From: Prorocentrum cordatum
Taxonomy: Eukaryota; Sar; Dinophyceae; Prorocentrales; Prorocentraceae
DNA: 64,000 nucleotides
Assembly: GCA_963575745.1 (NCBI GenBank)
Contig: CAUYUJ010015947.1
Coordinates: 89,501 to 153,500 of the forward strand
Direction of reading: 5' to 3'
Part shown: positions 11,431 through 63,118 of the stretch, one piece after another
Layout of the letters: each line of letters begins with the position of its first letter
Numbering within the stretch: the stretch's first letter is position 1
Notes under the pieces: model-generated
What the model was told of the DNA's origin: nothing
Seen by the model: the letters and a program-made list of their open reading frames with translations, nothing else
Database searches by the model: none
Program-made: the position numbers and the translations under genes

Positions 11431-11456
11431 CCGCAGTAATATTTTGGCCAAATCAG
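11431..11456 (+). other. Possible degenerate relict spliced leader, gene 1
   Basis: CCGCAG...ATTTTGGC...TCAG resembles the dinoflagellate leader CCGTAG-CC-ATTTTGGC-TCAAG if small insertions are allowed. It sits about 100 bp before the start codon, close to the distance of the clear relict leaders of genes 3-5. It follows a CCT tract, so chance similarity is possible. Confidence 0.3.
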
Positions 11457-11533
11457 GTTCGAGCTTGCTGCGGCGGCTATTCTGACACCGTATTTGTCCG
11501 AGTGATCCCTCATTTTACTTCGGTTCAGAGGTA

Positions 11534-12622
11534 ATGGCGGCGGTGCTCGTCAAGGGTTTCGTGGCCGCTGTCCTGGCCTCCTTGTTTGGAGTGGGCCACG
11601 GATGGGGGTTCCGCGGACCGGCGGGGTGCCAGGCGATCAGCACGCCTGGCATGGACGGCGCCCTCGGGATCGATGCCCAGCTGATCCAGGTCACAGCAGA
11701 CGCGGACGAAAACTCGAGCAGGGCCTTGCTCAGCAGACGCGTCGCGTTCACGATCGAGCTCGAGATCCGGAAGAAGTTTGGCACAAGCATTCTGTTCCCT
11801 GCCCAGCTGTCGATTGCGAACGGCTTGATGTCTGATCTGGAGGCAGAGGCACAGGCCCACATACGAGCTTGGGACAACTCGTTCAGCTCGGCAACGGTGT
11901 CTGGCGGCGCCGCCACGGTGATGGCGTCTCCCGAGAATGGCATTAACCGGGTCTTCGCATTGCTCCCAGTCACCGGAATGGCGTACATTGCCATGAACGC
12001 CAGGTCTGACTTGCAAGCCGACCTCCTGAATGCCTTCGAGGGCTTGTCGTGGGGCGACGCTAAGCCTCACCAGTTGTTCATCGGGCAGGGTAACACGCAA
12101 GACACGGCAATCAACAGCGATCAGGCAGTCACTGGCAAGGGAGACCCCCACTTGGTCAACATGCGCGGGCAGCACTTCGACCTCTACCAGCCGGGCATCC
12201 ACGTGCTCCTCCAGGTCCCCCGGCGCGCGAAGCCGCAGGACAGCCTGCTGCGGGTGGAGGCCGACGCGCGGCGCATGGGCGCGGCGTGCGCAGACCTGTA
12301 CTTCCGGGTCTTGAACATCACGGGCAGCTGGTCCAACCAGACCGCGGGCCTCCAGTACTTCGCGGACAAGGAGCTCGACAGCCGAGATTGGAGGAAGTTC
12401 GGCGCCGTGGACCTCAAGGTGGTTCGCGGCAGCACCTTGTCAGGCATAGCGTACCTCAACGTGTTCGCGAGGCACCTCGGCAGCTTGGCGTACCCCGTCG
12501 GCGGCCTGCTGGGGGAGGACGACCACACCGCGGCGGCAACTGCTGGCCCCGAGTGCAGCACAGGTCTGGATCTCCACTCCCGGCGGCCCGCGGTGGCCTC
12601 GTTCGCCATCATCCAGGGCTGA
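11534..12622 (+). CDS. Secreted vWD-like GDPH-motif protein, gene 1 (type A)
   Basis: An uninterrupted 362-residue frame starting at the first ATG (11534). Residues 1-23 look like a signal peptide: K7, a hydrophobic core at about 8-20, then GHG before the mature start. The N-terminal half (about 45-200) is unassigned. Residues 203-206 are GDPH, followed by LVNM and FDLYQPG; GLLGEDDH lies near 324-331. This pair resembles the beginning and the GLCG-like end of a von Willebrand factor D-type domain, a family I associate with dinoflagellate secreted proteins. Cysteines are sparse (32, 252, 341), so a classical disulfide-rich vWD is unlikely. Sequons are NSS at 60, NIT at 261 and NQT at 268. A pyrimidine-rich tract ending in CAG lies just upstream and could accept trans-splicing. 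The stop is TGA after IIQG. It is the first of five tandem paralogues; the function is inferred only as extracellular or surface. Confidence 0.85.
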   Translation: MAAVLVKGFVAAVLASLFGVGHGWGFRGPAGCQAISTPGMDGALGIDAQLIQVTADADENSSRALLSRRVAFTIELEIRKKFGTSILFPAQLSIANGLMSDLEAEAQAHIRAWDNSFSSATVSGGAATVMASPENGINRVFALLPVTGMAYIAMNARSDLQADLLNAFEGLSWGDAKPHQLFIGQGNTQDTAINSDQAVTGKGDPHLVNMRGQHFDLYQPGIHVLLQVPRRAKPQDSLLRVEADARRMGAACADLYFRVLNITGSWSNQTAGLQYFADKELDSRDWRKFGAVDLKVVRGSTLSGIAYLNVFARHLGSLAYPVGGLLGEDDHTAAATAGPECSTGLDLHSRRPAVASFAIIQG

Positions 12623-14479: not shown

Positions 14480-15568
14480 ATGGCGGCGGTGCTCGTCAAG
14501 GGTTTCGTGGCCGCTGTCCTGGCCTCCTTGTTTGGAGTGGGCCACGGATGGGGGTTCCGCGGGCCGGCGGGGTGCCAGGCGATCAGCACGCCTGGCATGG
14601 ACGGCGCCCTCGGGATCGATGCCCAGCTGATCCAGGTCACAGCAGACGCGGACGAAAACTCGAGCAGGGCCTTGCTCAGCAGACGCGTCGCGTTCACGAT
14701 CGAGCTCGAGATCCGGAAGAAGTTTGGCACAAGCATTCTGTTCCCTGCCCAGCTGTCGATTGCGAACGGCTTGATGTCTGATCTGGAGGCAGAGGCACAG
14801 GCCCACATACGAGCTTGGGACAACTCGTTCAGCTCGGCAACGGTGTCTGGCGGCGCCGCCACGGTGATGGCGTCTCCCGAGAATGGCATTAACCGGGTCT
14901 TCGCATTGCTCCCAGTCACCGGAATGGCGTACATTGCCATGAACGCCAGGTCTGACTTGCAAGCCGACCTCCTGAATGCCTTCGAGGGCTTGTCGTGGGG
15001 CGACGCTAAGCCTCACCAGTTGTTCATCGGGCAGGGTAACACGCAAGACACGGCAATCAACAGCGATCAGGCAGTCACTGGCAAGGGAGACCCCCACTTG
15101 GTCAACATGCGCGGGCAGCACTTCGACCTCTACCAGCCGGGCATCCACGTGCTCCTCCAGGTCCCCCGGCGCGCGAAGCCGCAGGACAGCCTGCTGCGGG
15201 TGGAGGCCGACGCGCGGCGCATGGGCGCGGCGTGCGCAGACCTGTACTTCCGGGTCTTGAACATCACGGGCAGCTGGTCCAACCAGACCGCGGGCCTCCA
15301 GTACTTCGCGGACAAGGAGCTCGACAGCCGAGATTGGAGGAAGTTCGGCGCCGTGGACCTCAAGGTGGTTCGCGGCAGCACCCTGTCAGGCATAGCGTAC
15401 CTCAACGTGTTCGCGAGGCACCTCGGCAGCTTGGCGTACCCCGTCGGTGGCCTGTTGGGGGAGGACGATCACACCGCGGCGGCAACTGCTGGCCCCGAGT
15501 GCAGCACAGGTCTGGAGCTCCACTCCCGGCGGCCCGCGGTGGCCTCGTTCGCCATCACCCAGGACTGA
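14480..15568 (+). CDS. Secreted vWD-like GDPH-motif protein, gene 2 (type A, type B tail)
   Basis: A 362-residue frame that matches gene 1 almost exactly until the last codons, where it reads ELHSRR...AITQD as genes 3 and 4 do, instead of DLHSRR...AIIQG. The start ATG (14480), signal peptide (about 1-23), GDPH at 203-206, GLLGEDDH near 324-331 and the three sequons are as in gene 1. The 3' flank is identical to the type B unit, so the gene is a natural join between the type A duplication on its left and the 7.5-kb type B spacer on its right. Its exact role is unknown; an extracellular or cell-surface protein is inferred. Confidence 0.85.
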   Translation: MAAVLVKGFVAAVLASLFGVGHGWGFRGPAGCQAISTPGMDGALGIDAQLIQVTADADENSSRALLSRRVAFTIELEIRKKFGTSILFPAQLSIANGLMSDLEAEAQAHIRAWDNSFSSATVSGGAATVMASPENGINRVFALLPVTGMAYIAMNARSDLQADLLNAFEGLSWGDAKPHQLFIGQGNTQDTAINSDQAVTGKGDPHLVNMRGQHFDLYQPGIHVLLQVPRRAKPQDSLLRVEADARRMGAACADLYFRVLNITGSWSNQTAGLQYFADKELDSRDWRKFGAVDLKVVRGSTLSGIAYLNVFARHLGSLAYPVGGLLGEDDHTAAATAGPECSTGLELHSRRPAVASFAITQD

Positions 15569-16168: not shown

Positions 16169-16560
16169 TCAGCCCCCCCCCCCCCCAGAAAAAAAAGGCA
16201 GTCCCAAGACGGCCCAAGAGGTCCCCAAGAGGGCCACAAGACGGTCCAAGAGGGCCCCAAGACGGCCCACGAGGCGTCCAGACCCGCACAAGACGGCCCC
16301 CACGAGGGCTTCAAGGCCCAAGGCCGCCCAAGAGGCGCCCCAGCCGGCCCAAAAGCGCTTCAAGAGGGCCCCAAGAGACCCAAAAGAGGTCCCCCAAGCG
16401 CCCCCCGAGCGGTCCTCCGATCGCCATCGGTGCCAAGGTGGCCCCTGGAGCATCCTGGCGGTCCCTAAGAAGCCCCCCAAAGTCCCCCAGGACGCTTCCA
16501 ACCCCCAATGGACACCCAAGTGGTTCTCAAGAGTCCCCCGAGCTGCCCCAGTAGAGACTA
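16169..16560. repeat. Poly-C/poly-A tract and CCAAGA-type minisatellite, U1
   Basis: A C run followed by eight As (about 16172-16197) leads into CCAAGACGG/CCAAGAGGTCC words every 9-20 bases. Sister copies lie at about 23703-24090, 31302-31695 and 38757-39145. Confidence 0.85.
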
Positions 16561-16627: not shown

Positions 16628-17630
16628 CGTCGTCCTCCTCCTCCGCCTCCTCCTCCACCTCCCCTCTCCTCCTCCTCCTCCGCCTCCCCCTTCCCTCCTC
16701 CTCCTCCTCCTCCTCCGTCCTCCTCCTCCTCCCCTCCTCCTCCCCCTCCTCCTCCTTTCCCCTCCTGCTCCTCCTCCTCCTCCTCCTCCTCCTCTCCGCC
16801 TCCGCCCCCTCCTCCTTCGCCCTCCTCCTCCTCCTTCTCCCCTCCTCCTCGTCCTCCTTCTCTTCTTTCACCCTTGCGCATCTCACCCCTCAACACTTTT
16901 TTTCTCTCCCAATTCGAATCCCCTCTCTCTCTTTCCTGCGCCCTCCTCCTCCACGTCCATATTGCCTCCGCCCTTTTCCTCATCCAACCCTATTCCATAC
17001 TCACTCCTCGTGTATACCTTCCTCCGTTCCCTCCTTTCTCCAATTTTCTCATCTTGCCTCCTTGCGGGTTGCACTCGGCAAAGGTCAGGTCCTATAATAA
17101 TATGTAATAATCTCGTCTGCAACACTTCATTTTGCTCACCCGTCGCTGGCACTTGGCCAGGTCGGGTTCTGCCGCCTCGTTGCAGACCCAGCCTGGCGTT
17201 GGCCGGCTGGGTATGGTTGGTCGCGACACGAACCCCATGGCATCTTACCGTGCGCGTTCTTTCCGAAACAAAAAAACTTTCTCATCTTGCCTCCTGCCCT
17301 CGACCTCGTACATTCGCCCTCCTGCCCCCTCCCTGCTCCTCCCCGCATCGGCAATTGCCCCTTCATCCCTTCTTCCTCCGCCCTGCCCTTTCCTTCCCTC
17401 TCCTTTTCACTTTGCGTCCTTCTGTCCTCCCTCTACCTCCTCCTCCTCCTCCTGCCCATCCATCTTTCTTTCTGCGTCCGCCTCCTCCCTCCACCGTTCC
17501 TCTTCCCCACTCCCCCCTCCACATTTGGCTTCAGCCTTCTTTTCCCGCCTTCCTCCACTCTTCCTCGTCCTGCCACCTCCTTCCCTTATCTTGCCTCCTG
17601 GAACCACCATCATCTTCCATCCAGGGGTGG
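16628..17630. repeat. CCT/CT-rich tract, U1
   Basis: Pyrimidine-rich sequence, with strict CCT runs at about 16628-16860 and looser CT-rich sequence to 17620. It is interrupted by a conserved less repetitive segment (about 17040-17270). The CCT part is the most variable block between units. Sister tracts lie at about 24155-25180, 31760-32775 and 39205-40215. Confidence 0.85.
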
Positions 17631-21251: not shown

Positions 21252-21739
21252 TACACCCATACGCACAGACATACAGACTTACAGACACACAACATACAGA
21301 CATACAGACTACCAGACATACATACCGACATCGGATAAAGATATCATATTACAAACCCTGCCCTGGAGGTCCCGGCCGAAGACCAACCATGGGCACTGAA
21401 ATACACTAAGTACCCCCCCCGGGCAACCGGGGCTTTCCCAGAGCCTCTCCGGAGCTTCCCCGGCCCCCCTCTGAAGCTTGCGGGTAGGGTCCAAATCACA
21501 GACGGGACAAGAATGGTTTCCGGACAGCCCCAGAATGGCGTCAAGGCGGCCCAAGAGACAATACTATAAACAGACCACCGGCAACCCAACACGAAGGTCC
21601 CCATACCTAGACATCTTTGCGGGGTTTGGGGGCGTACAGGGTTCCATTATGTTTTGCTGAATGGTCCAGAGAGCGCCCCCGCTGGGATTGCAGGGCCCAA
21701 TGGGCGACTCGTGTGGGTTGGGGGGCTCGGCGGGGTAGT

Positions 21740-21920
21740 CGAGAAGGCCCCCGAGACGCTCCAAGGTCGTACCCCAAGAGGAGCCCCGAGAGGGCCCGAA
21801 AGCGGCAAACTCGTCCATTCCCTGTTGGGGAAACGCACCTTCAGGCACATTCGCTTTTTGTTCATCTTCGCAGCGTCCAAGACGGGAGCCACGAGAGGCC
21901 CAAGACACAGTCCCAAGACG
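21740..21920. repeat. CCAAGA-type minisatellite before gene 3
   Basis: Degenerate CCAAGAGG/CCAAGACGG words ending immediately at the relict spliced leader. Sister copies: 29340-29521 and 36850-37031. Confidence 0.7.
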
Positions 21921-21948
21921 GCCTAGCCATTTTGGCTCAAGGCTCAAG
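21921..21948 (+). other. Relict spliced leader with one deleted base, gene 3
   Basis: GCC-TAGCCATTTTGGCTCAAG matches the dinoflagellate leader except for one missing G. It is followed directly by a second GCTCAAG. It is 72 bases upstream of the ATG and is not followed by a GT donor, so it is not an SL RNA gene. Confidence 0.85.
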
Positions 21949-22019
21949 CAGCCTCGTGGCCCTGACATCGCACTTTTTGTCTTTGTGTTCCCTGCAACTT
22001 CCACTTCGCTCGAGTGGCC

Positions 22020-23099
22020 ATGGCGGTCTTCGTCGTCCGATGTCTCGTGGCCGCTGTCCTGGCCTCCTCGTTTGGAGCGGGCCACGGGCGGGGGTGTCGC
22101 GGGCCGGCGGGCTGCCAGGCGATCAGCACGACTGGCATGCAGGGCGCCCTCGGGATCGATGCCCAGTTGCTCCAGATTGCCGCAGACGCAGAGGAAAATC
22201 CGAGCAGGGCCTTGCTGAGCAGGCGCGTCGCGTTCACGATCGAGCTCGAGATCCGGGGGACCAACAATGGGTTCCCTGGCCAGCTGTCGATTGCGAACGG
22301 CCTGATGTCTGATCTGGAGGCGGAGGCGCAGGCCCACATACGAGCTTGGGACAATACGTTCAGCTCGGCAACGGTGTCTGGCGGCGCCGCTACGGTGATG
22401 GCGTCTCCCGAGAATGGCATTAACCGGGTCTTCGCATTGCTCCCAGTCACCGGAATGCCGTATTTTGCCATGATTTCCAGGTCTGATTTGCAAGCCGACC
22501 TCTTGAATGCCTTCGAGGGCTTGTGGAGGGGCGAGGCAAGGCCTCACCAGTTGTTCATCAGGCAGGGTAACACGCAAGACACGGCAATCAACAGCGATCA
22601 GGCAGTGACTGGCAAAGGAGACCCCCACTTGGTCAACATGCTCGGGCAGCGCTTCGACCTCTACCAGCCGGGCATCCACGTGCTCCTCCAGGTCCCCCGG
22701 CGCGCGAAGCCGCAGGACAGCCTGCTGCGGGTGGAGGCCGACGCGCGGCGCATGGGCGCGGCGTGCGCAGACCTGTACTTTCGGGTCTTGAACATCACGG
22801 GCAGCTTGTCCAACCAGACCGCGGGATTCCAGTACTTCGCGGACAAGGAGCTCGGCAGCCGAGATTGGAGGAAGTTCGGCGCCGTGGACCTCAAGGTGGT
22901 TCGCGGCAGCACCCTGTCAGGCATAGCGTACCTCAACGTGTTCGCGAGGCACCTCGGCAGCTTGGCGTACCCCGTCGGTGGCCTGTTGGGGGAGGACGAT
23001 CACACCGCGGCGGCAACTGCTGGCCCCGAGTGCAGCACAGGTCTGGAGCTCCACTCCCGGCGGCCCGCGGTGGCCTCGTTCGCCATCACCCAGGACTGA
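22020..23099 (+). CDS. Secreted vWD-like GDPH-motif protein, gene 3 (type B)
   Basis: A 359-residue uninterrupted frame from ATG 22020; the two codons before it are GTG GCC. The signal peptide (about 1-23) starts MAVFVVRC. It differs from type A mainly in residues 1-90: an extra cysteine at 26, loss of the NSS sequon (ENPS) and a three-residue deletion near 80-87. GDPH falls at 200-203 and GLLGEDDH near 321-328, both as in genes 1 and 2. NIT and NQT sequons remain at about 258 and 265. A pyrimidine-rich stretch ending CGAG sits 7 bases before the ATG and could be the current trans-splice acceptor. The gene is intronless, with a relict leader in its 5' flank. Confidence 0.87.
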   Translation: MAVFVVRCLVAAVLASSFGAGHGRGCRGPAGCQAISTTGMQGALGIDAQLLQIAADAEENPSRALLSRRVAFTIELEIRGTNNGFPGQLSIANGLMSDLEAEAQAHIRAWDNTFSSATVSGGAATVMASPENGINRVFALLPVTGMPYFAMISRSDLQADLLNAFEGLWRGEARPHQLFIRQGNTQDTAINSDQAVTGKGDPHLVNMLGQRFDLYQPGIHVLLQVPRRAKPQDSLLRVEADARRMGAACADLYFRVLNITGSLSNQTAGFQYFADKELGSRDWRKFGAVDLKVVRGSTLSGIAYLNVFARHLGSLAYPVGGLLGEDDHTAAATAGPECSTGLELHSRRPAVASFAITQD

Positions 23100-25609
23100 G
23101 GGGGCCCGGGCTGCCCTCGGCCGCCGCGGAGGTGGGCGCCACGCCCCGCGGCCCGGGAGAGGCTCGGGGGGGGGGCGGCCGAGCTGCGGGGGCGCCCATC
23201 CGAGAGGGGGGTGAGGACCTGGAGGAGGGGAGGAGGCGCGGAGGGCGGGCGGCAGGCGCGGCTCAGTTCAACGGGAGGCCATGCCACGGCCCACCTCCTG
23301 GGCGCCTGCTGGCCAGGGCCACCTCCACTTCTGGAGGAGGAACCTCCCGTCTCCCTTATCGGGCTTGGGCTGAACCTGGCCGGACGACCGCCGTGGCCAG
23401 GGCGGCGGGACGCTTGGCGTGTGCCACAGCGCTGCGTCGAGCTCGCGCCCTGTGGTACGTTCGCCTCTGTTTTAAGGGTCACGATTTATAATGGCGATGG
23501 TGACATCTATTTTGAAGGGTCACAAGTCTGGCAAACAACGACTTCTGACACGTTTTCAATCGCTTACAAGCGTTGAGGAGCTTGTGTGACACGTTTTCAA
23601 TCGCTTCAATAGTGCGCAACGCACTATATGGCTCATGGTCGGTCTCGCGGTGCAGTTCAGTTATCTGCTGCCGCGGCCCAGCTTGCTCACTGCAAGGCTT
23701 CAGCCCCCCCCCCCCCCAGAAAAAAAAGGCAGTCCCAAGACGGCCCAAGAGGTCCCCAAGAGGGCCACAAGACGGTCCAAGAGGGCCCCAAGACGGCCCA
23801 CGAGGCGTCCAGACCCGCACAAGACGGCCCCCACGAGGGCTTCAAGGCCCAAGGCCGCCCAAGAGGCGCCCCAGCCGGCCCAAAAGCGCTTCAAGAGGGC
23901 CCCAAGAGACCCAAAAGAGGTCCCCCAAGCGCCCCCCGAGCGGTCCTCCGATCGCCATCGGTGCCAAGGTGGCCCCCGGAGCATCCTGGCGGTCTCTAAG
24001 AAGCCCCCCAAAGTCCCCCAGGACGCTTCCAACCCCCAATGGACACCCAAGTGGTTCTCAAGAGTCCCCCGAGCTGCCCCAGTAGAGACTACAAGATGAT
24101 TTCTTGCACGCCTGAAATCGAAGACACCTCCATTCCAGAAGGTATATAAACACTCTCTCGTCGTCCTCCTCCTCCTCTCACTCTCTCCTCCTCCTCCTCC
24201 CTCCTCCTTTCCTCTCTACTCCTTCCTTCCCCCCCTTACCCTCCTCCCTCCTCCTCCTCCTCTCCTCCTCCTTCCATCCTCCTCCTCCTCCCCCCCTTCC
24301 TCCCTTCCCCTCCTTTCTCCTCCTCATCCTCTCCTCCTTCCTCCTCTCATCCCACCTCCTCTTCTCCCTCCTCCTCCTCCTCCTTCTCCCCTCCTCCTCG
24401 TCCTCCTTCTCTTCTTTCACCCTTGCGCATCTCACCCCTCAACACTTTTTTTCTCTCCCAATTCGAATCCCCTCTCTCTCTTTCCTGCGCCCTCCTCCTC
24501 CACGTCCATATTGCCTCCGCCCTCTTCCTCATCCAACCCTATTCCATACTCACTCCTCGTGTATACCTTCCTCCGTTCCCTCCTTTCTCCAATTTTCTCA
24601 TCTTGCCTCCTTGCGGGTTGCACTCGGCAAAGGTCAGGTCCTATAATAATATGTAATAATCTCGTCTGCAACACTTCATTTTGCTCACCCGTCGCTGGCA
24701 CTTGGCCAGGTCGGGTTCTGCCGCCTCGTTGCAGACCCAGCCTGGCGTTGGCCGGCTGGGTATGGTTGGTCGCGACACGAACCCCATGGCATCTTACCGT
24801 GCGCGTTCTTTCCGAAACAAAAAAACTTTCTCATCTTGCCTCCTGCCCTCGACCTCGTACATTCGCCCTCCTGCCCCCTCCCTGCTCCTCCCCGCATCGG
24901 CAATTGCCCCTTCATCCCTTCTTCCTCCGCCCTGCCCTTTCCTTCCCTCTCCTTTTCACTTTGCGTCCTTCTGTCCTCCCTCTACCTCCTCCTCCTCCTC
25001 CTGCCCATCCATCTTTCTTTCTGCGTCCGCCTCCTCCCTCCACCGTTCCTCTTCCCCACTCCCCCCTCCACATTTGGCTTCAGCCTTCTTTTCCCGCCTT
25101 CCTCCACTCTTCCTCGTCCTGCCACCTCCTTCCCTTATCTTGCCTCCTGGAACCACCATCATCTTCCATCCAGGGGTGGACCTAAACGGTGTTTTGGCGA
25201 TTTCGTGGGCCGTTTTCGTTTCGACGTCGTTCTGCAGCGGAGGCGAATTCAAGACAAAAAGAGGGAAAACGAAAACAAAACGAAAACAAAAAGCACTGTT
25301 TGGGTCCAGCCCTGCTTCCAGCCGTGCACCAGAAAGCCCGACCCCAAGGGGCCCCAGGCCGCAGCACACGCGCGGGGCACCTGGGGTCCCACCTCTGTGG
25401 GTGCCTCCCCTCCGGGGGGGCCTCCGCAGGGCCTCCCCCGGAGCTGTTCCCCGGGAGGCTGCCCGGAGCTGCGTGCAGGAGTTCCAAGAGAGCCTCCTCA
25501 GACCTCCTCGCGCTGTGGAAAAAATCGCGACGGGAGGTTTCTCTCTACTTTTGGCCCTTGGGGGCCCTCGCCGGGACTGTCAAAAAACGACTCAGGATGG
25601 AAAACGGGT

Positions 25610-28960: not shown

Positions 28961-29521
28961 ACCAGGAACCCTGCCCTGGAGGGTCCCGGGCCGAAGACCA
29001 CCATGGGGCACTTGAAATACACTAAGTACCCCCCCCGGGGCACCGGGGCTTCCCAGAGCCTCTCCGGAGCTTCCCCGGCCCCCCTCTGAAGCTTGCGGGT
29101 AGGGTCCAATCACAGACGGGACAAGATGGTTTCCGGACAGCCCCAGATGGCGTCAAGGCGGCCCAAGAGACACTACTTACCAGACCACCGCAACCCAACA
29201 CGAAGGTCCCAGACCCCCCCATCTTTCGGGTTTGGGGGCGTACAGGTTCCATTATGTTTTCTGGATGGTCCAGAGCGCCCCCCGCTGGAAGTTGGCAGGC
29301 CCAATGGCGACTTCGGGTTGGGTTGGGGTGGCTCGGTGGGTAGTCGAGAAGGCCCCCGAGACGCTCCAAGGCGACCCCAAGAGGATCCCCGAGAGGGCCC
29401 GAAGCGGCAAAACTCGTCCCATTCCTTTTGGGGGAAACGCACATTTCCAGCACATTCGCTTTTTGTTCATCTTCGCAGCGTCCAAGACGGACCACGAGGC
29501 CCCCAAGACAGTCCCAAGACG

Positions 29522-29550
29522 GCCGTAGCCATTTTGGCTCAAGGCTCAAG
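29522..29550 (+). other. Perfect relict dinoflagellate spliced leader, gene 4
   Basis: Positions 29522-29543 match all 22 bases of the leader (core CCGTAGCCATTTTGGCTCAAG without its first base D, which is G here). A second GCTCAAG follows at 29544-29550. It lies 75 bases before the ATG. No GT donor follows, so it is a fossil of a reintegrated trans-spliced transcript, not an SL RNA gene. Confidence 0.95.
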
Positions 29551-29617
29551 CCTGCTTGGACCCTGACATCGCATTTTGTATTTGTGTTCCCTGCACTTCC
29601 ACTTCGTTCGAGTGGCC

Positions 29618-30697
29618 ATGGCGGTCTTCGTCGTCCGATGTCTCTTGGCCGCTGTCCTGGCCTCCTCGTTTGGAGCGGGCCACGGGCGGGGGTGTCGCGG
29701 GCCGGCGGGCTGCCAGGCGATCAGCACGACTGGCATGCAGGGCGCCCTCGGGATCGATGCCCAGTTGCTCCAGATTGCCGCAGACGCAGAGGAAAATCCG
29801 AGCAGGGCCTTGCTGAGCAGGCGCGTCGCGTTCACGATCGAGCTCGAGATCCGGGGGACCAACAATGGGTTCCCTGGCCAGCTGTCGATTGCGAACGGCC
29901 TGATGTCTGATCTGGAGGCGGAGGCGCAGGCCCACATACGAGCTTGGGACAATACGTTCAGCTCGGCAACGGTGTCTGGCGGCGCCGCTACGGTGATGGC
30001 GTCTCCCGAGAATGGCATTAACCGGGTCTTCGCATTGCTCCCAGTCACCGGAATGCCGTATTTTGCCATGATTTCCAGGTCTGATTTGCAAGCCGACCTC
30101 TTGAATGCCTTCGAGGGCTTGTGGAGGGGCGAGGCAAGGCCTCACCAGTTGTTCATCAGGCAGGGTAACACGCAAGACACGGCAATCAACAGCGATCAGG
30201 CAGTGACTGGCAAAGGAGACCCCCACTTGGTCAACATGCTCGGGCAGCGCTTCGACCTCTACCAGCCGGGCATCCACGTGCTCCTCCAGGTCCCCCGGCG
30301 CGCGAAGCCGCAGGACAGCCTGCTGCGGGTGGAGGCCGACGCGCGGCGCATGGGCGCGGCGTGCGCAGACCTGTACTTTCGGGTCTTGAACATCACGGGC
30401 AGCTTGTCCAACCAGACCGCGGGATTCCAGTACTTCGCGGACAAGGAGCTCGGCAGCCGAGATTGGAGGAAGTTCGGCGCCGTGGACCTCAAGGTGGTTC
30501 GCGGCAGCACCCTGTCAGGCATAGCGTACCTCAACGTGTTCGCGAGGCACCTCGGCAGCTTGGCGTACCCCGTCGGTGGCCTGTTGGGGGAGGACGATCA
30601 CACCGCGGCGGCAACTGCTGGCCCCGAGTGCAGCACAGGTCTGGAGCTCCACTCCCGGCGGCCCGCGGTGGCCTCGTTCGCCATCACCCAGGACTGA
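29618..30697 (+). CDS. Secreted vWD-like GDPH-motif protein, gene 4 (type B)
   Basis: A 359-residue frame from ATG 29618. The frame stays open upstream to about 29576 but without an earlier ATG. The protein equals gene 3 except for V10L in the signal peptide. GDPH is at 200-203, GLLGEDDH near 321-328, and the C-terminus is LELHSRR...AITQD. Its third-position and coding changes relative to gene 3 are very few, which points to recent duplication or gene conversion. Secretion is inferred from the signal peptide; the molecular role is unknown. Confidence 0.87.
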   Translation: MAVFVVRCLLAAVLASSFGAGHGRGCRGPAGCQAISTTGMQGALGIDAQLLQIAADAEENPSRALLSRRVAFTIELEIRGTNNGFPGQLSIANGLMSDLEAEAQAHIRAWDNTFSSATVSGGAATVMASPENGINRVFALLPVTGMPYFAMISRSDLQADLLNAFEGLWRGEARPHQLFIRQGNTQDTAINSDQAVTGKGDPHLVNMLGQRFDLYQPGIHVLLQVPRRAKPQDSLLRVEADARRMGAACADLYFRVLNITGSLSNQTAGFQYFADKELGSRDWRKFGAVDLKVVRGSTLSGIAYLNVFARHLGSLAYPVGGLLGEDDHTAAATAGPECSTGLELHSRRPAVASFAITQD

Positions 30698-33204
30698 GGG
30701 GGCCCGGGCTGCCCTCGGCCGCCGCGGAGGTGGGCGCCACGCCCCGCGGCCCGGGAGAGGCTCGGGGGGGGGGCGGCCGAGCTGCGGGGGCGCCCATCCG
30801 AGAGGGGGGTGAGGACCTGGAGGAGGGGAGGAGGCGCGGAGGGCGGGCGGCAGGCGCGGCTCAGTTCAACGGGAGGCCATGCCACGGCCCACCTCCTGGG
30901 CGCCTGCTGGCCAGGGCCACCTCCACTTCTGGAGGAGGAACCTCCCGTCTCCCTTATCGGGCTTGGGCTGAACCTGGCCGGACGACCGCCGTGGCCAGGG
31001 CGGCGGGACGCTTGGCGTGTGCCACAGCGCTGCGTCGAGCTCGCGCCCTGTGGTACGTTCGCCTCTGTTTTAAGGGTCACGATTTATAATGGCGATGGTG
31101 ACATCTATTTTGAAGGGTCACAAGTCTGGCAAACAACGACTTCTGACACGTTTTCAATCGCTTACAAGCGTTGAGGAGCTTGTGTGACACGTTTTCAATC
31201 GCTTCAATAGTGCGCAACGCACTATATGGCTCATGGTCGGTCTCGCGGTGCAGTTCAGTTATCTGCTGCCGCGGCCCAGCTTGCTCACTGCAAGGCTTCA
31301 GCCCCCCCCCCCCCCAGAAAAAAAAGGCAGTCCCAAGACGGCCCAAGAGGTCCCCAAGAGGGCCACAAGACGGTCCAAGAGGGCCCCAAGACGGCCCACG
31401 AGGCGTCCAGACCCGCACAAGACGGCCCCCACGAGGGCGTCAAGACCCGCTTGCCGCCCACACACAAGAGGCGCCCCCAAGCCGGACCCAAAGCGCTTTA
31501 AAGAGGCCACAAGGAGCCCAAATAGAGGTCCCCAAACGGCCCCCCGAGCGGTTCCCCCGATCGCCATCGGTGACAAGGTGGCCCCTGGAGAATCTGGCGT
31601 TCCTCACCAGAGATCGCGCATACCACCAGACGTTCCAACCACCACAATTGGACACCCAAGTGGGTCTCAAGAGTCCCCGAGCTGCCCCAGGAGAGACTAA
31701 TAAGATTATTTCGCACGCCTCAGGCTGAAGACCCCTCCATTCCAGAAGGTAATAAACACTCTCATCGTCGTCCGCCTCCTCTCCTCCTGGCCTCCTCTCC
31801 TCTCCTCCTGCCTCTCCTCCTCCCCTCCTCCCTTTCCCCTCCTCCTCCGCCCTCCTCCTCTTCCTCATCAGCTCCTCCTCCTACTCCCCCCCTCCTCCTT
31901 GTTCCCATCCTTCTCCTCCTCCTCCTCCTCCTCCTCCCCCCTCCTTCCCCCTCCCCTTTAGCCTCCTCCTCCTCCTCCTTCTCCCCTCCTCCTCGTCCTC
32001 CTTCTCTTCTTTCACCCTTGCGCATCTCACCCCTCAACACTTTTTTTCTCTCCCAATTCGAATCCCCTCTCTCTCTTTCCTGCGCCCTCCTCCTCCACGT
32101 CCATATTGCCTCCGCCCTTTTCCTCATCCAACCCTATTCCATACTCACTCCTCGTGTATACCTTCCTCCGTTCCCTCCTTTCTCCAATTTTCTCATCTTG
32201 CCTCCTTGCGGGTTGCACTCGGCAAAGGTCAGGTCCTATAATAATATGTAATAATCTCGTCTGCAACACTTCATTTTGCTCACCCGTCGCTGGCACTTGG
32301 CCAGGTCGGGTTCTGCCGCCTCGTTGCAGACCCAGCCTGGCGTTGGCCGGCTGGGTATGGTTGGTCGCGACACGAACCCCATGGCATCTTACCGTGCGCG
32401 TTCTTTCCGAAACAAAAAAACTTTCTCATCTTGCCTCCTGCCCTCGACCTCGTACATTCGCCCTCCTGCCCCCTCCCTGCTCCTCCCCGCATCGGCAATT
32501 GCCCCTTCATCCCTTCTTCCTCCGCCCTGCCCTTTCCTTCCCTCTCCTTTTCACTTTGCGTCCTTCTGTCCTCCCTCTACCTCCTCCTCCTCCTCCTGCC
32601 CATCCATCTTTCTTTCTGCGTCCGCCTCCTCCCTCCACCGTTCCTCTTCCCCACTCCCCCCTCCACATTTGGCTTCAGCCTTCTTTTCCCGCCTTCCTCC
32701 ACTCTTCCTCGTCCTGCCACCTCCTTCCCTTATCTTGCCTCCTGGAACCACCATCATCTTCCATCCAGGGGTGGACCTAAACGGTGTTTTGGCGATTTCG
32801 TGGGCCGTTTTCGTTTCGACGTCGTTCTGCAGCGGAGGCGAATTCAAGACAAAAAGAGGGAAAACGAAAACAAAACGAAAACAAAAAGCACTGTTTGGGT
32901 CCAGCCCTGCTTCCAGCCGTGCACCAGAAAGCCCGACCCCAAGGGGCCCCAGGCCGCAGCACACGCGCGGGGCACCTGGGGTCCCACCTCTGTGGGTGCC
33001 TCCCCTCCGGGGGGGCCTCCGCAGGGCCTCCCCCGGAGCTGTTCCCCGGGAGGCTGCCCGGAGCTGCGTGCAGGAGTTCCAAGAGAGCCTCCTCAGACCT
33101 CCTCGCGCTGTGGAAAAAATCACGACGGGAGGTTTCTCTCTACTTTTGGCCCTTGGGGGCCCTCGCCGGGACTGTCAAAAAACGACTCAGGATGGAAAAC
33201 GGGT

Positions 33205-36460: not shown

Positions 36461-37031
36461 GATATCATATACCAGGAACCCTGCCCTGGAGGGTCCCGGG
36501 CCGAAGACCACCATGGGGCACTTGAAATACACTAAGTACCCCCCCCGGGGCACCGGGGCTTCCCAGAGCCTCTCCGGAGCTTCCCCGGCCCCCCTCTGAA
36601 GCTTGCGGGTAGGGTCCAATCACAGACGGGACAAGATGGTTTCCGGACAGCCCCAGATGGCGTCAAGGCGGCCCAAGAGACACTACTTACCAGACCACCG
36701 CAACCCAACACGAAGGTCCCAGACCCCCCCATCTTTCGGGTTTGGGGGCGTACAGGTTCCATTATGTTTTCTGGATGGTCCAGAGCGCCCCCCGCTGGAA
36801 GTTGGCAGGCCCAATGGCGACTTCGGGTTGGGTTGGGGTGGCTCGGTGGGTAGTCGAGAAGGCCCCCGAGACGCTCCAAGGCGACCCCAAGAGGATCCCC
36901 GAGAGGGCCCGAAGCGGCAAAACTCGTCCCATTCCTTTTGGGGGAAACGCACATTTCCAGCACATTCGCTTTTTGTTCATCTTCGCAGCGTCCAAGACGG
37001 ACCACGAGGCCCCCAAGACAGTCCCAAGACG

Positions 37032-37060
37032 GCCGTAGCCATTTTGGCTCAAGGCTCAAG
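37032..37060 (+). other. Perfect relict dinoflagellate spliced leader, gene 5
   Basis: Positions 37032-37053 match the full 22-base leader and GCTCAAG repeats at 37054-37060, exactly as before gene 4. The distance to ATG is 75 bases. Confidence 0.95.
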
Positions 37061-37127: not shown

Positions 37128-38207
37128 ATGGCGGTCTTCGTCGTCCGATGTCTCTTGGCCGCTGTCCTGGCCTCCTCGTTTGGAGCGGGCCACGGGCGGG
37201 GGTGTCGCGGGCCGGCGGGCTGCCAGGCGATCAGCACGACTGGCATGCAGGGCGCCCTCGGGATCGATGCCCAGTTGCTCCAGATTGCCGCAGACGCAGA
37301 GGAAAATCCGAGCAGGGCCTTGCTGAGCAGGCGCGTTGCGTTCACGATCGAGCTCGAGATCCGGGGGACCAACAATGGGTTCCCTGGCCAGCTGTCGATT
37401 GCGAACGGCCTGATGTCTGATCTGGAGGCGGAGGCGCAGGCCCACATACGAGCTTGGGACAATACGTTCAGCTCGGCAACGGTGTCTGGCGGCGCCGCTA
37501 CGGTGATGGCGTCTCCCGAGAATGGCATTAACCGGGTCTTCGCATTGCTCCCAGTCACCGGAATGCCGTATTTTGCCATGATTTCCAGGTATGATTTGCA
37601 AGCCGACCTCTTGAATGCCTTCGAGGGCTTGTGGAGGGGCGAGGCAAGGCCTCACCAGTTGTTCATCAGGCAGGGTAACACGCAAGACACGGCAATCAAC
37701 AGCGATCAGGCAGTGACTGGCAAAGGAGACCCCCACTTGGTCAACATGCTCGGGCAGCGCTTCGACCTCTACCAGCCGGGCATCCACGTGCTCCTCCAGG
37801 TCCCCCGGCGCGCGAAGCCGCAGGACAGCCTGCTGCGGGTGGAGGCCGACGCGCGGCGCATGGGCGCGGCGTGCGCAGACCTGTACTTTCGGGTCTTGAA
37901 CTTCACGGGCAGCTTGTCCAACCAGACCGCGGGATTCCAGTACTTCGCGGACAAGGAGCTCGGCAGCCGAGATTGGAGGAAGTTCGGCGCCGTGGACCTC
38001 AAGGTGGTTCGCGGCAGCACCCTGTCAGGCATAGCGTACCTCAACGTGTTCGCGAGGCACCTCGGCAGCTTGGCGTACCCCGTCGGCGGCCTGTTGGGGG
38101 AGGACGACCACACCGCGGCGGCAACTGCTGGCCCCGAGTGCAGCACAGGTCTGGATCTCCACTCCCGGCGGCCCGCGGTGGCCTCGTTCGCCATCACACA
38201 GGACTGA
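37128..38207 (+). CDS. Secreted vWD-like GDPH-motif protein, gene 5 (type B, type A-like tail)
   Basis: A 359-residue frame from ATG 37128. The N-terminus equals gene 4. Two private substitutions are visible: S to Y in SRSDLQ (about residue 156) and I to F in the NIT sequon (about 259), which keeps the sequon. The last 120 bases resemble gene 1 (GGCGGCCTG, GACGACCAC, LDLHSRR) more than genes 3 and 4, while the stop context (ITQD, TGA) is type B. The 3' flank has lost about 80 bases that follow the other stops. It is the last gene of the array. Confidence 0.87.
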   Translation: MAVFVVRCLLAAVLASSFGAGHGRGCRGPAGCQAISTTGMQGALGIDAQLLQIAADAEENPSRALLSRRVAFTIELEIRGTNNGFPGQLSIANGLMSDLEAEAQAHIRAWDNTFSSATVSGGAATVMASPENGINRVFALLPVTGMPYFAMISRYDLQADLLNAFEGLWRGEARPHQLFIRQGNTQDTAINSDQAVTGKGDPHLVNMLGQRFDLYQPGIHVLLQVPRRAKPQDSLLRVEADARRMGAACADLYFRVLNFTGSLSNQTAGFQYFADKELGSRDWRKFGAVDLKVVRGSTLSGIAYLNVFARHLGSLAYPVGGLLGEDDHTAAATAGPECSTGLDLHSRRPAVASFAITQD

Positions 38208-41079
38208 GAGGGACCGGGCGAGGCTCGGGGGGGGGGCGGCCGAGCTGCGGGGGCGCCCATCCAAGAGGGGGGTGAGGACCAGGAGGAGGGGAGGAGGAGC
38301 GGAGGGCGGGCGGCAGGCGCGGCTCAGTTCAACGGGAGGCCAGGCCACGGCCCACCTCCTGGGCGCCGGCTGGCCAGGGCCACCTCCACTTCTGGAGGAG
38401 GAACCTCCCGTTTCCCTTATCGGGTCGGGCTGAACCTGGCCGGACGACCGCCGTGGCCAGGGCGGCGGGACGCTTTGCGTGCGCCACAGGGCTGCGTCGA
38501 GCTCGCGCCCTGTGGTACGTTTCGCCTCTGTTTTAAGGGTCACGATTTATAATGGCGATGGTGACATCTATTTGAAGGTAACAAGTCTGGCAAACAACGA
38601 CTTCTGACACGTTTAATGCTTAACTAGCGTTGGAGCTTGTGTGACACGTTTTCAATCGCTTCAATAGTGCGCAACGCACTATATGGTCATGGTCGGTCTC
38701 GCGGTGCAGTTCAGTTATCTGCTGCGCGGCCCAGCTTGCTCACTGCAAGGCTTCAGCCCCCCCCCCCCCCCAGAAAAAAAAGGCAGTCCCAAGACGGCCC
38801 AAGAGGTCCCCAAGAGGGCCACAAGACGGTCCAAGAGGGCCCCAAGACGGCCCACGAGGCGTCCAGACCCGCACAAGACGGCCCCCACGAGGGCTTCAAG
38901 GCCCAAGGCCGCCCAAGAGGCGCCCCAGCCGGCCCAAAAGCGCTTCAAGAGGGCCCCAAGAGACCCAAAAGAGGTCCCCCAAGCGCCCCCCGAGCGGTCC
39001 TCCGATCGCCATCGGTGCCAAGGTGGCCCCCGGAGCATCCTGGCGGTCTCTAAGAAGCCCCCCAAAGTCCCCCAGGACGCTTCCAACCCCCAATGGACAC
39101 CCAAGTGGTTCTCAAGAGTCCCCCGAGCTGCCCCAGTAGAGACTACAAGATGATTTCTTGCACGCCTGAAATCGAAGACACCTCCATTCCAGAAGGTATT
39201 AAACACTCTTCGTCGTCCTCCTCCTCCCTCTCCTCTCCTCCTCCTCCTCCTCCTCCTCCTCTCCTCCTCCTCCTCATCCTCCTCCTCTTCTCCTTCCTCC
39301 TCCCTCCTCCTCCTCTTCCCCTCCTCCTCCTTCCCCTCCTTCCTTCCTCCTCCTCCTCCTCCTCCTCCTCCCTCCTCCTCCTCCCCCTCCTCCTCCTTCT
39401 CCTCCTCCTCCTCCTCCTTCTCCCCTCCTCCTCGTCCTCCTTCTCTTCTTTCACCCTTGCGCATCTCACCCCTCAACACTTTTTTTCTCTCCCAATTCGA
39501 ATCCCCTCTCTCTCTTTCCTGCGCCCTCCTCCTCCACGTCCATATTGCCTCCGCCCTCTTCCTCATCCAACCCTATTCCATACTCACTCCTCGTGTATAC
39601 CTTCCTCCGTTCCCTCCTTTCTCCAATTTTCTCATCTTGCCTCCTTGCGGGTTGCACTCGGCAAAGGTCAGGTCCTATAATAATATGTAATAATCTCGTC
39701 TGCAACACTTCATTTTGCTCACCCGTCGCTGGCACTTGGCCAGGTCGGGTTCTGCCGCCTCGTTGCAGACCCAGCCTGGCGTTGGCCGGCTGGGTATGGT
39801 TGGTCGCGACACGAACCCCATGGCATCTTACCGTGCGCGTTCTTTCCGAAACAAAAAAACTTTCTCATCTTGCCTCCTGCCCTCGACCTCGTACATTCGC
39901 CCTCCTGCCCCCTCCCTGCTCCTCCCCGCATCGGCAATTGCCCCTTCATCCCTTCTTCCTCCGCCCTGCCCTTTCCTTCCCTCTCCTTTTCACTTTGCGT
40001 CCTTCTGTCCTCCCTCTACCTCCTCCTCCTCCTCCTGCCCATCCATCTTTCTTTCTGCGTCCGCCTCCTCCCTCCACCGTTCCTCTTCCCCACTCCCCCC
40101 TCCACATTTGGCTTCAGCCTTCTTTTCCCGCCTTCCTCCACTCTTCCTCGTCCTGCCACCTCCTTCCCTTATCTTGCCTCCTGGAACCACCATCATCTTC
40201 CATCCAGGGGTGGACCTAAACGGTGTTTTGGCGATTTCGTGGGCCGTTTTCGTTTCGACGTCGTTCTGCAGCGGAGGCGAATTCAAGACAAAAAGAGGGA
40301 AAACGAAAACAAAACGAAAACAAAAAGCACTGTTTGGGTCCAGCCCTGCTTCCAGCCGTGCACCAGAAAGCCCGACCCCAAGGGGCCCCAGGCCGCAGCA
40401 CACGCGCGGGGCACCTGGGGTCCCACCTCTGTGGGTGCCTCCCCTCCGGGGGGGCCTCCGCAGGGCCTCCCCCGGAGCTGTTCCCCGGGAGGCTGCCCGG
40501 AGCTGCGTGCAGGAGTTCCAAGAGAGCCTCCTCAGACCTCCTCGCGCTGTGGAAAAAATCGCGACGGGAGGTTTCTCTCTACTTTTGGCCCTTGGGGGCC
40601 CTCGCCGGGACTGTCAAAAAACGACTCAGGATGGAAAACGGGTCCCGAGGAAGGGGTCCAGACCTTTGGGGGTCGACGTCGCGAAAAAATCACGACGTCG
40701 GGGGTCTGGGTCACCACAGTCCCCCAGGAGCCCCCCAGGCTGCCCCGGGAGGTCTCCAGTAGCACAACGAGGCCCCAAGAAGCCGCCAGAGTGCTAACAC
40801 GGGACGTCCAAGAGGGCCCGTGTCCAAAGTGTTTGGGCTCCAAGGGTTTGGGACGCGTGCCTGGGCAATAATTGTCACGGGTAGCGCTTGCCTGTCCCGG
40901 CCGCGTGGCCGATGCAGTCTCGCGGTGTCTCTTGCGTGCTGACATTACGGGGAGTAGTTTGCACCAGTAATTTGCTCAGCGCTTAGGAAGTAGAATCCGC
41001 TCAGTGCTTTCGCGGCGTTACGACGGCGGTTGTTGAAGCATGCAGTCCGCTCCCATCCTCTCCCTCCCCCATGTTTTCG
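38208..41079. repeat. Truncated spacer unit U4
   Basis: The 3' flank, damaged hairpin, CCAAGA array, CT tract (39205-39430), element R and one 437-bp copy (40644-41079) match U1-U3. Identity stops at ATGTTTTCG, the point where the second 437-bp copy begins in the other units. Confidence 0.92.
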
Positions 41080-58092: not shown

Positions 58093-58285
58093 GGTTCAAG
58101 AGTTCTCATGGGCAACGTCCCAGGAATGGTGTGTTGGCACGATGTCGGAGTGTCAGGGCGCAACAGTCACGTTGATTCGCGGTGTTGTAGTCCCGGGAAC
58201 GGTGTATCAATGTAGGAGCTTATGAAAAGGGAACTTGGAGGGAGGGCTTCTTGCAATACCGTTGATGAGTCTTGTGCTTACACTG

Positions 58286-58500
58286 GTCCTCCTCCTCCTC
58301 CTCCTCCTCCTCCTCCTCCTCCTCCTCCTCCTCCTCCTCATACCTCTTCCTTCTCATACCCCTTCCTCCCTCCTCATCCTCCTCCTCCTCCACTCCTTTC
58401 CTCCTTCTCCTCCTCCTCCTTTCCTCCTCCTCCTCCTCCTCCTCCTCCTCCTCCTCCTTTCCTCCTCCTCCTCCTCCTCCTCCTCCTCCTCCGCCTCCTT
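58286..58500. repeat. CCT microsatellite
   Basis: Long CCT run. A GGA run of opposite sense follows at 58665-58770, so the two could pair and enclose a 160-bp GC-rich island. Confidence 0.92.
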
Positions 58501-58664
58501 CGCCTTCCTCCTTCGGCGCCGGGCGCGCCGCCGATCACCAGGAGAACCGGGGGAGGCCGTACGCGGCCGAGTGGGAGATGTGCGAGCCCCCGAAGTTCAG
58601 CGACAGCAGCGCGAGCCGCAGCCGCGGGCGCGGCGGCGGACGCAGGCCAGAGGGAGGGGGGGAG

Positions 58665-58770
58665 GGAGGGAGGGAGGAGGAGGAGGAGGAGGAGGAAGTA
58701 GGAGGAGGAGGAGGAGGAAGTGGGAGGAGGAGGAGGAGGAGGAGGAGGAGGGGAGGAGGAGGAGGAAACC
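58665..58770. repeat. GGA microsatellite
   Basis: GGA run with few interruptions, reverse complementary in type to the CCT run upstream. Confidence 0.9.
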
Positions 58771-58844
58771 GCCTCCAAGCTGGAATTTCGGCACCACCAT
58801 GTCGGCTCGATCCTTGCTCAACTTGGGAAAGGCTCCAGGGGTAC

Positions 58845-59640
58845 ATGAGCGTGCTAATGCAAGTCCTCCGCCAGGACATCTTGAAACGACATTGTCGTCT
58901 GTGGCATTTAGTTTTGACTTTCGCTGACGGGGCGGAGCACAAAGTGGAACAGCTGCTATCTTTAACGTGCCTGCTCCAAAGAGCGACTGAGTGGAGCGGG
59001 GAGGTGGAGGTGCGTCTTTTTACTGCTCACGTGCCTTCGGCATTTGACAGCTTGACCGTCCAGGCTGTGGAGGAGAGCTTCGGGTTTTGGGGCGTGCACC
59101 CAGCAATTGGCGCAGCGGTACTCCAGGAGCTTTTGGCGATGGAGGCTTGGCCCATTTTCGATGGAAAGCGTGCTGGATCTTCGTTCTGTTATAACAAGTC
59201 CATGAAGCAGGGTGGGTCTGACGCACCGTTTCTGTGCAATTGCGTCATTCGGAACAGATTAAGCCCATTGGTGCAATCTTGGGAGAGTCGAGGGCTTGGC
59301 GTTTCCTTAGGAAGCTGCTCTTATATCACGCACGCCATCTGTTCGGACACCTTGTACATTTTTGGCACAATAATTGCTGAAACGCACCTAATGTCACAGG
59401 AGTGCACGCGTGCCTTGAACGGAAGCGGCCTGCGCTGGACGCCAAGCAGGCAGCAACGGGCCAGTCGGTGCATTCGCTTTTTCTATCTTCCAGGACGGCG
59501 TCGAGATTGCGGTGCTGGTTGTCGACCGTATCGGCATGCTCGGTGGAAAGGTGTGCAGGGATGGGACGACAGACATGATGGTCCAAAACCGACTCCGCAA
59601 AGCGACGGGCCCCGTCGCTTTGCGGAGTCGGTTTGGCCCA
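58845..59640 (+). pseudogene. Degenerate non-LTR (LINE-type) reverse transcriptase fragment
   Basis: From ATG 58845 (in frame with open sequence upstream) the plus frame resembles the RT of non-LTR retrotransposons. Motif A is TAHVPSAFDSL, where the catalytic Asp expected before the AFD is His. Next come HPAIGAAVLQELL, a motif B-like MKQGGSDAPFL, LSPLVQSWESRGLGVSLGS, and motif C as AICSDTLYIFG in place of xADD or xADN. GLRWTPS follows. Near 59452 the frame shifts, and a second frame continues RT-like (FSIFQDGVEIAVLVVDRIG, then a LGGKV...NRLRKAT motif). Loss of catalytic residues plus the frameshift mean it is inactive. The 5' part with an endonuclease is missing. It ends in a palindrome that duplicates its last codons in reverse. 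Confidence 0.7.
59586..59634. repeat. Perfect 24-bp inverted repeat with 1-base loop
   Basis: AAACCGACTCCGCAAAGCGA-CGGG (59586-59609), one C, then its exact reverse complement (59611-59634). The left arm is the part of the RT relic that encodes NRLRKAT, so the right arm is an inverted duplication of RT sequence at its 3' edge. Confidence 0.92.
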
Positions 59641-59814
59641 ATCTGATTTTTGTTGAACCCTAGTTGACTCCAAGATTGTGTCAATATGGTTCGAATCTGA
59701 CTCCGATGCGTTTCTTCCTTCTCCCCTTGCTCTTGGCTTGGGCCAGTGGGACGGATGGGGGTGCTGTCCCTCCACCCCCTCGTCGTCGACTTCTTCCTCC
59801 TCCCCCTCGTCCTC

Positions 59815-62953: not shown

Positions 62954-63118
62954 CCTCTGGCTATATCTTCTCTCTGACCTTCTCTTCCGGATCCTCCTCA
63001 TTCCCCATAACCCGCCCCTCTCGCTTGCTGGCCAGCGTCGCCCCCCCCATCCCTCCCGGGAGGAGCTGGCGACCCCCCCCCCGAAAAAGTGGTGGCCCGG
63101 TGGAGGGAAGCCAAAGAG

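Follow-up and report, generated by a model that had tools for sequence, protein, structure and literature searches.

The three type B genes of a tandem gene family in the 64-kb window (the whole stretch of Prorocentrum cordatum DNA analysed here) very probably descend from an mRNA that was reverse transcribed, reinserted into the genome, and then amplified in tandem. All type B units have the same layout: a spliced leader, a 5′UTR, an uninterrupted ORF, a 3′UTR (620 nt; 566 nt in gene 5) and a tract of eight A residues (A8). The original prediction was that a trans-spliced mRNA had been reverse transcribed and returned to the genome, and this is supported by the leader, the A8 tract, and a 16-nt direct repeat at both ends.

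Gene family organization and predicted products

The window contains five tandem genes of one family, each a single ORF, and tblastn reveals no sixth copy in the window. Genes 1 and 2 are type A, with products of 362 aa, and genes 3, 4, and 5 are type B, with products of 359 aa; the first coordinate of each gene is that of its ATG.

11534–12622, + strand: gene 1, type A paralogue, 362 aa, without a clear leader
14480–15568, + strand: gene 2, putative recombinant with a type A 5′ part and 5′ flank and a type B 3′ end and 3′ spacer
22020–23099, + strand: gene 3, type B
29618–30697, + strand: gene 4, type B, 359 aa, single ORF, N-terminus hydrophobic by eye
37128–38207, + strand: gene 5, type B

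The family product is probably a secreted vWD-like protein. Two family proteins scanned against Pfam have no match up to E = 1, and a profile of 11 family members (of 46) matches Fc-gamma-binding protein over 28 residues (E = 9.7e-6 for the whole chain), with no single stretch significant alone and a short match in the GDPH region of gene 4. We take the matched region of Fc-gamma-binding protein to be vWD-type. Among 7994 candidates scored, 44 homologues were found. Two close ones are MMETSP transcript clusters, P0003 (89%; 4 members) and P0004 (86%; 19 members), P0033, the third MMETSP homologue, is distant; about 40% of the query is shared by four annotated Prorocentrum cordatum proteins, and most others come from short contigs of sequence collections. 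No family relatives were confirmed in viral contigs. The P0004 representative agrees with the gene 1 product to residue 332 and differs from it in residues 333–362; this divergent C-terminus has no full match in the window by tblastn, and the transcript may be chimeric, come from a further gene copy, or have an alternative 3′ end.

Spliced leader sequences upstream of the type B genes

The 22-nt dinoflagellate spliced leader (DinoSL; DCCGTAGCCATTTTGGCTCAAG) is present as an exact match upstream of both gene 4 and gene 5. Gene 3 has the corresponding site at 21920–21941 with two substitutions when aligned ungapped, equivalent to the deletion of a single base (GCC-TAG; 21921–21941).

21921–21941, + strand: relict leader minus one base, gene 3; the missing base may be a consensus error
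29522–29543, + strand: relict spliced leader, exact 22-mer, gene 4
29544–29550, + strand: GCTCAAG adjoining the gene 4 leader; may derive from the tail of an earlier relict
37032–37053, + strand: relict spliced leader, exact, gene 5

On both strands of the window there are no DinoSL matches with up to three mismatches beyond the three type B sites, and a 15-nt core (CCATTTTGGCTCAAG) with up to two mismatches is limited to the same sites. The mean number of DinoSL matches expected by chance is 0.00 per shuffle (100 dinucleotide shuffles). The genomic leader is therefore genuine and above chance, and it lies 5′ of protein-coding genes as in relict-SL retrogenes; the exact leaders predicted before genes 4 and 5 and the one-base-deleted copy before gene 3 are confirmed. 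Together with the family's homologues, the leader indicates that the window is dinoflagellate nuclear DNA. The leader-to-ATG spacing in genes 4 and 5 is 74 nt, within one of the predicted 75 bases, and GCTCAAG lies directly 3′ of the leader in genes 3, 4, and 5, also as predicted.

An exact match to the SL exon could in principle mark SL RNA genes or pseudogenes, an identity named from the outset as incompatible with a relict leader, but this is vanishingly improbable. An SL RNA gene has the SL exon followed by a GT donor, and all three type B leaders instead read AAG followed by GCTCAAG and never GT, which excludes that identity by sequence; moreover, the leaders of genes 4 and 5 sit at their 74-nt distance 5′ of intact ORFs. 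An Rfam scan of the window at the gathering threshold also reports nothing, although the dinoflagellate SL family is possibly absent from Rfam. In contrast, contig L003, one of two metagenome-assembled genome (MAG) contigs with the 21-mer in a scan of genome contigs, reads leader followed by GTACGCAACC (GTACGC).

L003 is a contig of a Dehalococcoidia MAG, and its leader (4354–4334) likely belongs to a mis-binned dinoflagellate SL RNA gene. In L002, also a contig of a Dehalococcoidia MAG, DinoSL (32–52) is near the contig edge and beside long bacterial-looking ORFs.

A single base separates the coding regions of genes 3 and 4, whereas over 21340–22039 the two units show 27 mismatches and 43 gap events, plus one at the alignment edge. 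Small indels in the gene 3 unit are abundant at 21340–22040 and 23850–24350, and the unit is nearly identical to that of gene 4 throughout the coding region and for 750 nt beyond. The indels may be local consensus error, or the pattern may reflect real divergence with a converted coding region; with so many small indels around gene 3, the deleted leader base is not firm evidence.

Ends of the putative insertion

The sequence 3′ of the gene 4 stop codon contains a C-rich tract ending in AG, followed by AAAAAAAA, GG, and the 16-mer CAGTCCCAAGACGGCC, which starts 2 nt past A8. The same 16-mer is present to the left of the gene, where its last three bases double as the start of the leader. Genes 4 and 5 retain an intact leader, and genes 3, 4, and 5 retain both 16-nt repeats unaltered.

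16189–16214, + strand: type B A8 (16189–16196) and right direct repeat (16199–16214), 3′ of leaderless gene 2
21908–21923, + strand: left direct repeat, gene 3
23720–23727, + strand: A8 tract, gene 3
23730–23745, + strand: right direct repeat, gene 3
29509–29524, + strand: left 16-nt direct repeat (putative target-site duplication), gene 4; last 3 bases overlap the leader
30698–31317, + strand: putative 3′UTR of the retrocopy, gene 4, 620 nt, from the A8 position
31318–31325, + strand: A8 tract, putative poly(A) remnant, gene 4
31328–31343, + strand: right 16-nt direct repeat, gene 4
37019–37034, + strand: left direct repeat, gene 5
38774–38781, + strand: A8 tract, gene 5, 566 nt past the stop
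38784–38799, + strand: right direct repeat, gene 5

These 16 nt are the longest exact match between 28980–29600 and 30698–32200, the next independent match being 11 nt, and with 29490–29524 as the query none of 500 shuffles of the downstream stretch reaches 16 nt (maximum 13). Apart from the gene 4 A8, no run of six or more A residues occurs in 30698–32200, and four of the five plus-strand runs of at least eight in the window are at the homologous place after genes 2, 3, 4, and 5. Matches of at least 13 nt to the leader-ending stretch are limited to the three units themselves and the four post-A8 sites (63,959 plus-strand starts). The window contains 54 runs of at least six A residues on both strands, and 13 have an upstream direct repeat of at least 14 nt; these correspond to the type B insertion (three), a SINE-like insert (four), larger duplications (four), an inverted-repeat element (one), and low-complexity sequence (one). 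In the remaining 41, including the A8 of leaderless gene 2, the repeat is no longer than 10 nt.

Both ends are as expected of a LINE-type retrocopy. Target-site duplications of LINE-type retrocopies are roughly 7–20 nt, and the exact 16-nt repeat falls in this range, although its motif is also a member of a repeat family. The A8 of gene 4 and its homologues would be the remnant of a poly(A) tail, although the tract is short and is also readable as a polyadenylation signal. Similarity between gene 1 and type B stops ~270 nt past the stop codon, some 400 nt short of A8, and type A thus provides no check on the 3′ end of the mRNA.

The repeat has a local background. The sequence CCAAGACGG is a member of a local repeat family. 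Elsewhere in this family the agreement with the leader-ending stretch is 12 nt, units of the adjoining array share up to 14 nt with the right repeat copy, and the repeat motif has 14 matches in the window at up to three mismatches, seven of them the copies in question. Sixteen nt exceed the 12-nt background only modestly, and the position of the two copies matters more: one meets the leader and the other the A-tract. When the insert is removed and the flanks are joined, Tandem Repeats Finder (TRF) detects an array with a 32-nt period (3.0 copies, 83% match, 0% indels) that spans the junction. At a score of 30 there is no array in the left flank by itself, and the right flank by itself yields shorter ones; because the right flank is already an array, the restored periodicity is partly its own property.

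The dispersal of the repeat motif in the window and its 12-nt family background would also suit gain of the leader without insertion of a whole gene, if gene conversion or recombination with an SL-bearing cDNA swapped the 5′ flank and both A8 and the repeat were ordinary spacer. Conversion in the family is suggested by the A/B synonymous distance, which falls along the gene from 0.32 to 0.05–0.09, and dinoflagellate polyadenylation sites normally carry a mini poly(A) followed by G or C, which is also proposed as their signal (PMC2488372). A swap of the 5′ flank nonetheless fails to predict a repeat that meets both the leader and the sole run of at least six A residues in 1.5 kb, or a periodic array across the junction of the joined flanks, and we regard it as quite unlikely.

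Target duplications made by an integrase are about 5 nt, and the ends of Ty1/copia retrocopies carry LTR-derived sequence. The observed 16-nt repeat and 3′ A-tract speak against insertion of the reverse-transcribed mRNA by a Ty1/copia-like LTR retrotransposon, with the 16-nt repeat a coincidence of array units. In its favour, the target is a minisatellite with repeats nearby, and PMC6050394 prefers Ty1/copia on expression grounds. This too is unlikely; it is a variant of the preferred retroposition reading, and its probability is not to be added to the others. LINE-type machinery most likely made the insertion, to judge from the ends.

Divergence of types A and B and the order of events

The distance per synonymous site between genes 1 and 4 is 0.32 in codons 1–60 and 0.05–0.09 in codons 181–360, and that between genes 2 and 4 is 0.29 in the first 60 codons; the drop toward the 3′ end is expected if the 3′ parts were homogenised later. 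Below the leader the 5′UTRs of the two types align with 52 matches and 18 mismatches (70 ungapped columns) and 11 gap columns, with a score of 14.0 compared to a maximum of 10.5 in 1000 shuffles, and the local score for 120 nt of the 5′ region is 26.5 (best of 500 shuffles, 20.5). The flanks 5′ of the leader are repeat-rich and not clearly related: the score is reached by 14 of 200 shuffles in one comparison and by 1 of 200 in another, and in a 400-nt comparison that includes the UTR by 1 of 500. Changes in the first 60 residues polarised with two outgroup proteins assign 8 to A and 4 to B (4 of 12 on B), and a comparison with two outgroups gives 9 A-derived, 11 B-derived, and 23 undecided, such that these amino-acid changes do not point to an ancestral type and neither A nor B appears clearly ancestral.

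The insertion probably postdates the A/B split, because the leader and repeats are unchanged despite the A/B divergence and the B branch did change. Type A is probably not the direct parent. Descent of type B from gene 1 or gene 2 by this insertion is unlikely, with an unchanged leader and repeats set against a synonymous difference of 0.32. Genes 3, 4, and 5 share the leader, A8, and repeat arrangement, which supports insertion prior to amplification of the 7.5-kb unit and agrees with the prediction that reintegration preceded tandem amplification. Gene 2 has a type A 5′ part and flank and a type B 3′ end, A8, and repeat, and is best read as a recombinant between the type A and type B arrays. 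Neither a parent gene of type B nor an intron-containing relative was found.

At the place homologous to the leader, type A reads CCGCAGTAATATTTTGGCCAAATCAGGTTCGAG, which is near a leader with an insertion.

11431–11463, + strand: possible eroded older relict leader of type A (CCGCAGTAATATTTTGGCCAAATCAGGTTCGAG); suggestive only

Its likeness to the leader is reached by 54 of 2000 shuffles and by 55 of 7996 overlapping pieces of the window (true leaders included) and is too weak as standalone evidence; it is retained as a candidate on account of its homologous position.

The homology of the A and B 5′UTRs down from the leader position (26.5 versus 20.5), and the retention of ATTTTGGC by type A at that position, would also be expected from one ancient retroposition before the split, with the leader having decayed in A and been kept in B (e.g. 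with the TTTTG box as a promoter). In PMC6050394 it is argued that relicts 50–100 nt 5′ of the start codon and the TTT(G) motif are conserved, and there is weak upstream similarity between A and B in two comparisons (1 of 200 and, including the UTR, 1 of 500 shuffles). However, this similarity is in repeat-rich DNA and the other upstream comparison is reached by 14 of 200 shuffles, the type A leader likeness is weak taken alone (54 of 2000; 55 of 7996), and both the leader (genes 4 and 5) and the target repeats are unchanged in spite of deep A/B divergence. A single ancient event is accordingly considered unlikely, and insertion of type B after the split is preferred.

Introns and expression

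The lack of introns was originally attributed to reintegration. This is not supported, as genes 1 and 2, without a clear leader, are equally single-ORF. The countercase raised with it, that loci lacking the leader are both equally intronless and ancestral, holds in part: genes 1 and 2 are equally intronless, and neither type is clearly ancestral. The transcript-derived protein P0003 aligns with the gene 1 product over 362 residues with no gap and 8 differences. Type A being as intronless as type B, intronlessness is at least as old as the A/B split as judged from these paralogues, and it could derive from an earlier round of recycling. In a tandem array, intronlessness and a leader need not share one event.

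None of the 44 homologues is a type B protein, and the two close MMETSP clusters are type A-like. With the transcript collection clustered at 90% and an identity of 89% between type B and one of these clusters, this absence is no proof of silence. Candidate acceptors of gene 4, following stretches with at least 60% pyrimidine, are AG dinucleotides 139, 131, and 5 nt 5′ of the ATG.

Other elements in the window and a leader-bearing virus-like contig

A SINE-like 215-nt insert (17045–17295) recurs at 24594, 32189, and 39628, and has an A7 tail and 18-nt direct repeats (TTTCTCATCTTGCCTCCT); ARAGORN finds no tRNA in it. The insert gives a hint of LINE-type insertion in this genome. A minus-strand element at 63115–63447 has inverted ends (31 nt, 87%) together with 22-nt direct repeats that lie inside a longer duplicated flank, and it looks like a small DNA transposon or an introner. 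The segment 63189–63425 was considered as a further retro-insertion and rejected, the inverted ends and longer duplicated flank favouring a DNA-transposon-like element.

Contig L001 (IMGVR_UViG_3300045993_001077; 7157 bp) is mostly 7–26% GC with a ~48% GC island on the minus strand (2766–1783) that begins exactly at a 21-nt DinoSL and ends in GGGAAAAAA. The island contains a 254-aa ORF whose sole homologue found is itself, with a Pfam RcsC match below the cut-off, and just upstream (2960–2893) are a second exact leader, a degenerate leader, and duplicated AT-rich flank. The island resembles the cDNA of an SL-tagged host mRNA taken up by a virus-like genome, with chimeric assembly the alternative. 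No second contig of this kind was found.

A model for the origin of the type B array

The type B lineage would have begun with a mature family mRNA composed of spliced leader, 74-nt 5′UTR, coding region, 620-nt 3′UTR, and poly(A). Reverse transcription and insertion of this mRNA in a CCAAGACGG-rich minisatellite would have produced a 16-nt target-site duplication of the kind made by LINE-type target-primed reverse transcription, and microhomology between the target and the first bases of the leader (GCC) may have joined the 5′ end. The retrocopy and its surroundings would then have been amplified as a 7.5-kb tandem unit to give genes 3, 4, and 5. Gene 2 would be the product of unequal exchange between this array and the older type A one.

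GCTCAAG may derive from the tail of an earlier relict leader, with the parent transcript cut between TTTTG and GCTCAAG; the type B insertion would then be a second round of recycling. If the eroded type A leader is real, GCTCAAG would be the tail of that older leader, and with the homologous type A 5′UTR holding this possible leader, two rounds are plausible; the earlier round is the least certain part of the model.

The Rfam and Pfam scans give no decisive match. An RVT_1 match in the window (ORF 58272–59663; E = 0.0085) is sub-threshold at 16.3 bits compared to 29.6, and this ORF has no homologues at E ≤ 0.001 among 7984 candidates.

We see an even chance that the locus is a readable insertion showing all of LINE-type target-primed recycling, at least two rounds of it, and a retrocopy seeding an array that invades an older one. 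If so, LINE-type target-primed reverse transcription would drive recycling of host mRNAs in dinoflagellates, one family would have been recycled at least twice (as marked by the GCTCAAG scar and the eroded type A leader), and a retrocopy could seed a tandem array and then invade an older array by unequal exchange. Retrogenes with relict leaders account for ~20–25% of dinoflagellate genes (PMC6050394), yet published views on the reverse transcriptase differ, PMC6050394 favouring LTR elements, PMC12014239 leaving the matter open and PMC10235124 preferring LINEs for viral insertions tagged with the SL. A locus with both ends provides a genome-wide search rule, with a leader at one end and an A-tract and 10–20-nt repeat at the other, and such a search of whole genomes could settle which reverse transcriptase makes dinoflagellate retrogenes.

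Comparison with known systems

Relict-SL retrogenes, or recycled cDNAs, were reportedly described in dinoflagellates by Slamovits and Keeling in 2008. They are now well known (PMC6050394, PMC12014239, PMC7245778, PMC11453091, PMC10235124, PMC3229502, PMC10666404, PMC7789003), and include relicts truncated to CTCAAG, with TG proposed as a non-canonical acceptor (PMC12014239). The type B genes are like those of PMC6050394 and PMC3229502 in having a genomic DinoSL just 5′ of an intact ORF; they differ in that the full 22-nt leader is kept, that A8 and the 16-nt repeat make both ends readable, and that the insertion can be ordered against the paralogue split and the tandem amplification.

Tandem genes of Amphidinium carterae, which are highly expressed, are similar in having few introns, a genomic SL-like motif 5′ of the start codon, and a short 3′ A-tract (mini poly(A)), and amplification by reverse transcription was suggested for them (PMC2488372). 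Type B differs in its 7.5-kb units, long repeat-rich spacers, and flanking direct repeat; the available text of PMC2488372 mentions no flanking repeat for the Amphidinium carterae gene copies. Endogenous dinoRNAV elements of Symbiodiniaceae are likewise RNA returned to the genome, with relict dinoSL near 6 of 26 RdRp ORFs (PMC10235124). LINEs are proposed for these SL-tagged viral insertions from nearby LINE sequences, and the term 'target site' is absent from the main text of that paper; the RNA there is viral, whereas type B is a host gene with repeat and A-tract ends.

LINE-1 processed retrocopies of mammals (PMC7692494, PMC4151081) are also intronless, with 3′ poly(A) and a flanking target-site duplication. 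Type B differs in having a trans-spliced leader as its 5′ end and in that its LINE-type route is read from the ends. The titles and abstract openings of the matches listed report no target-site duplications of dinoflagellate retrogenes, and PMC7789003 mentions such duplications once, for MITE-like introners; no claim to a first report is made. Retrogene recycling is a known dinoflagellate habit, to which the type B array adds readable ends and a comparison with paralogues.
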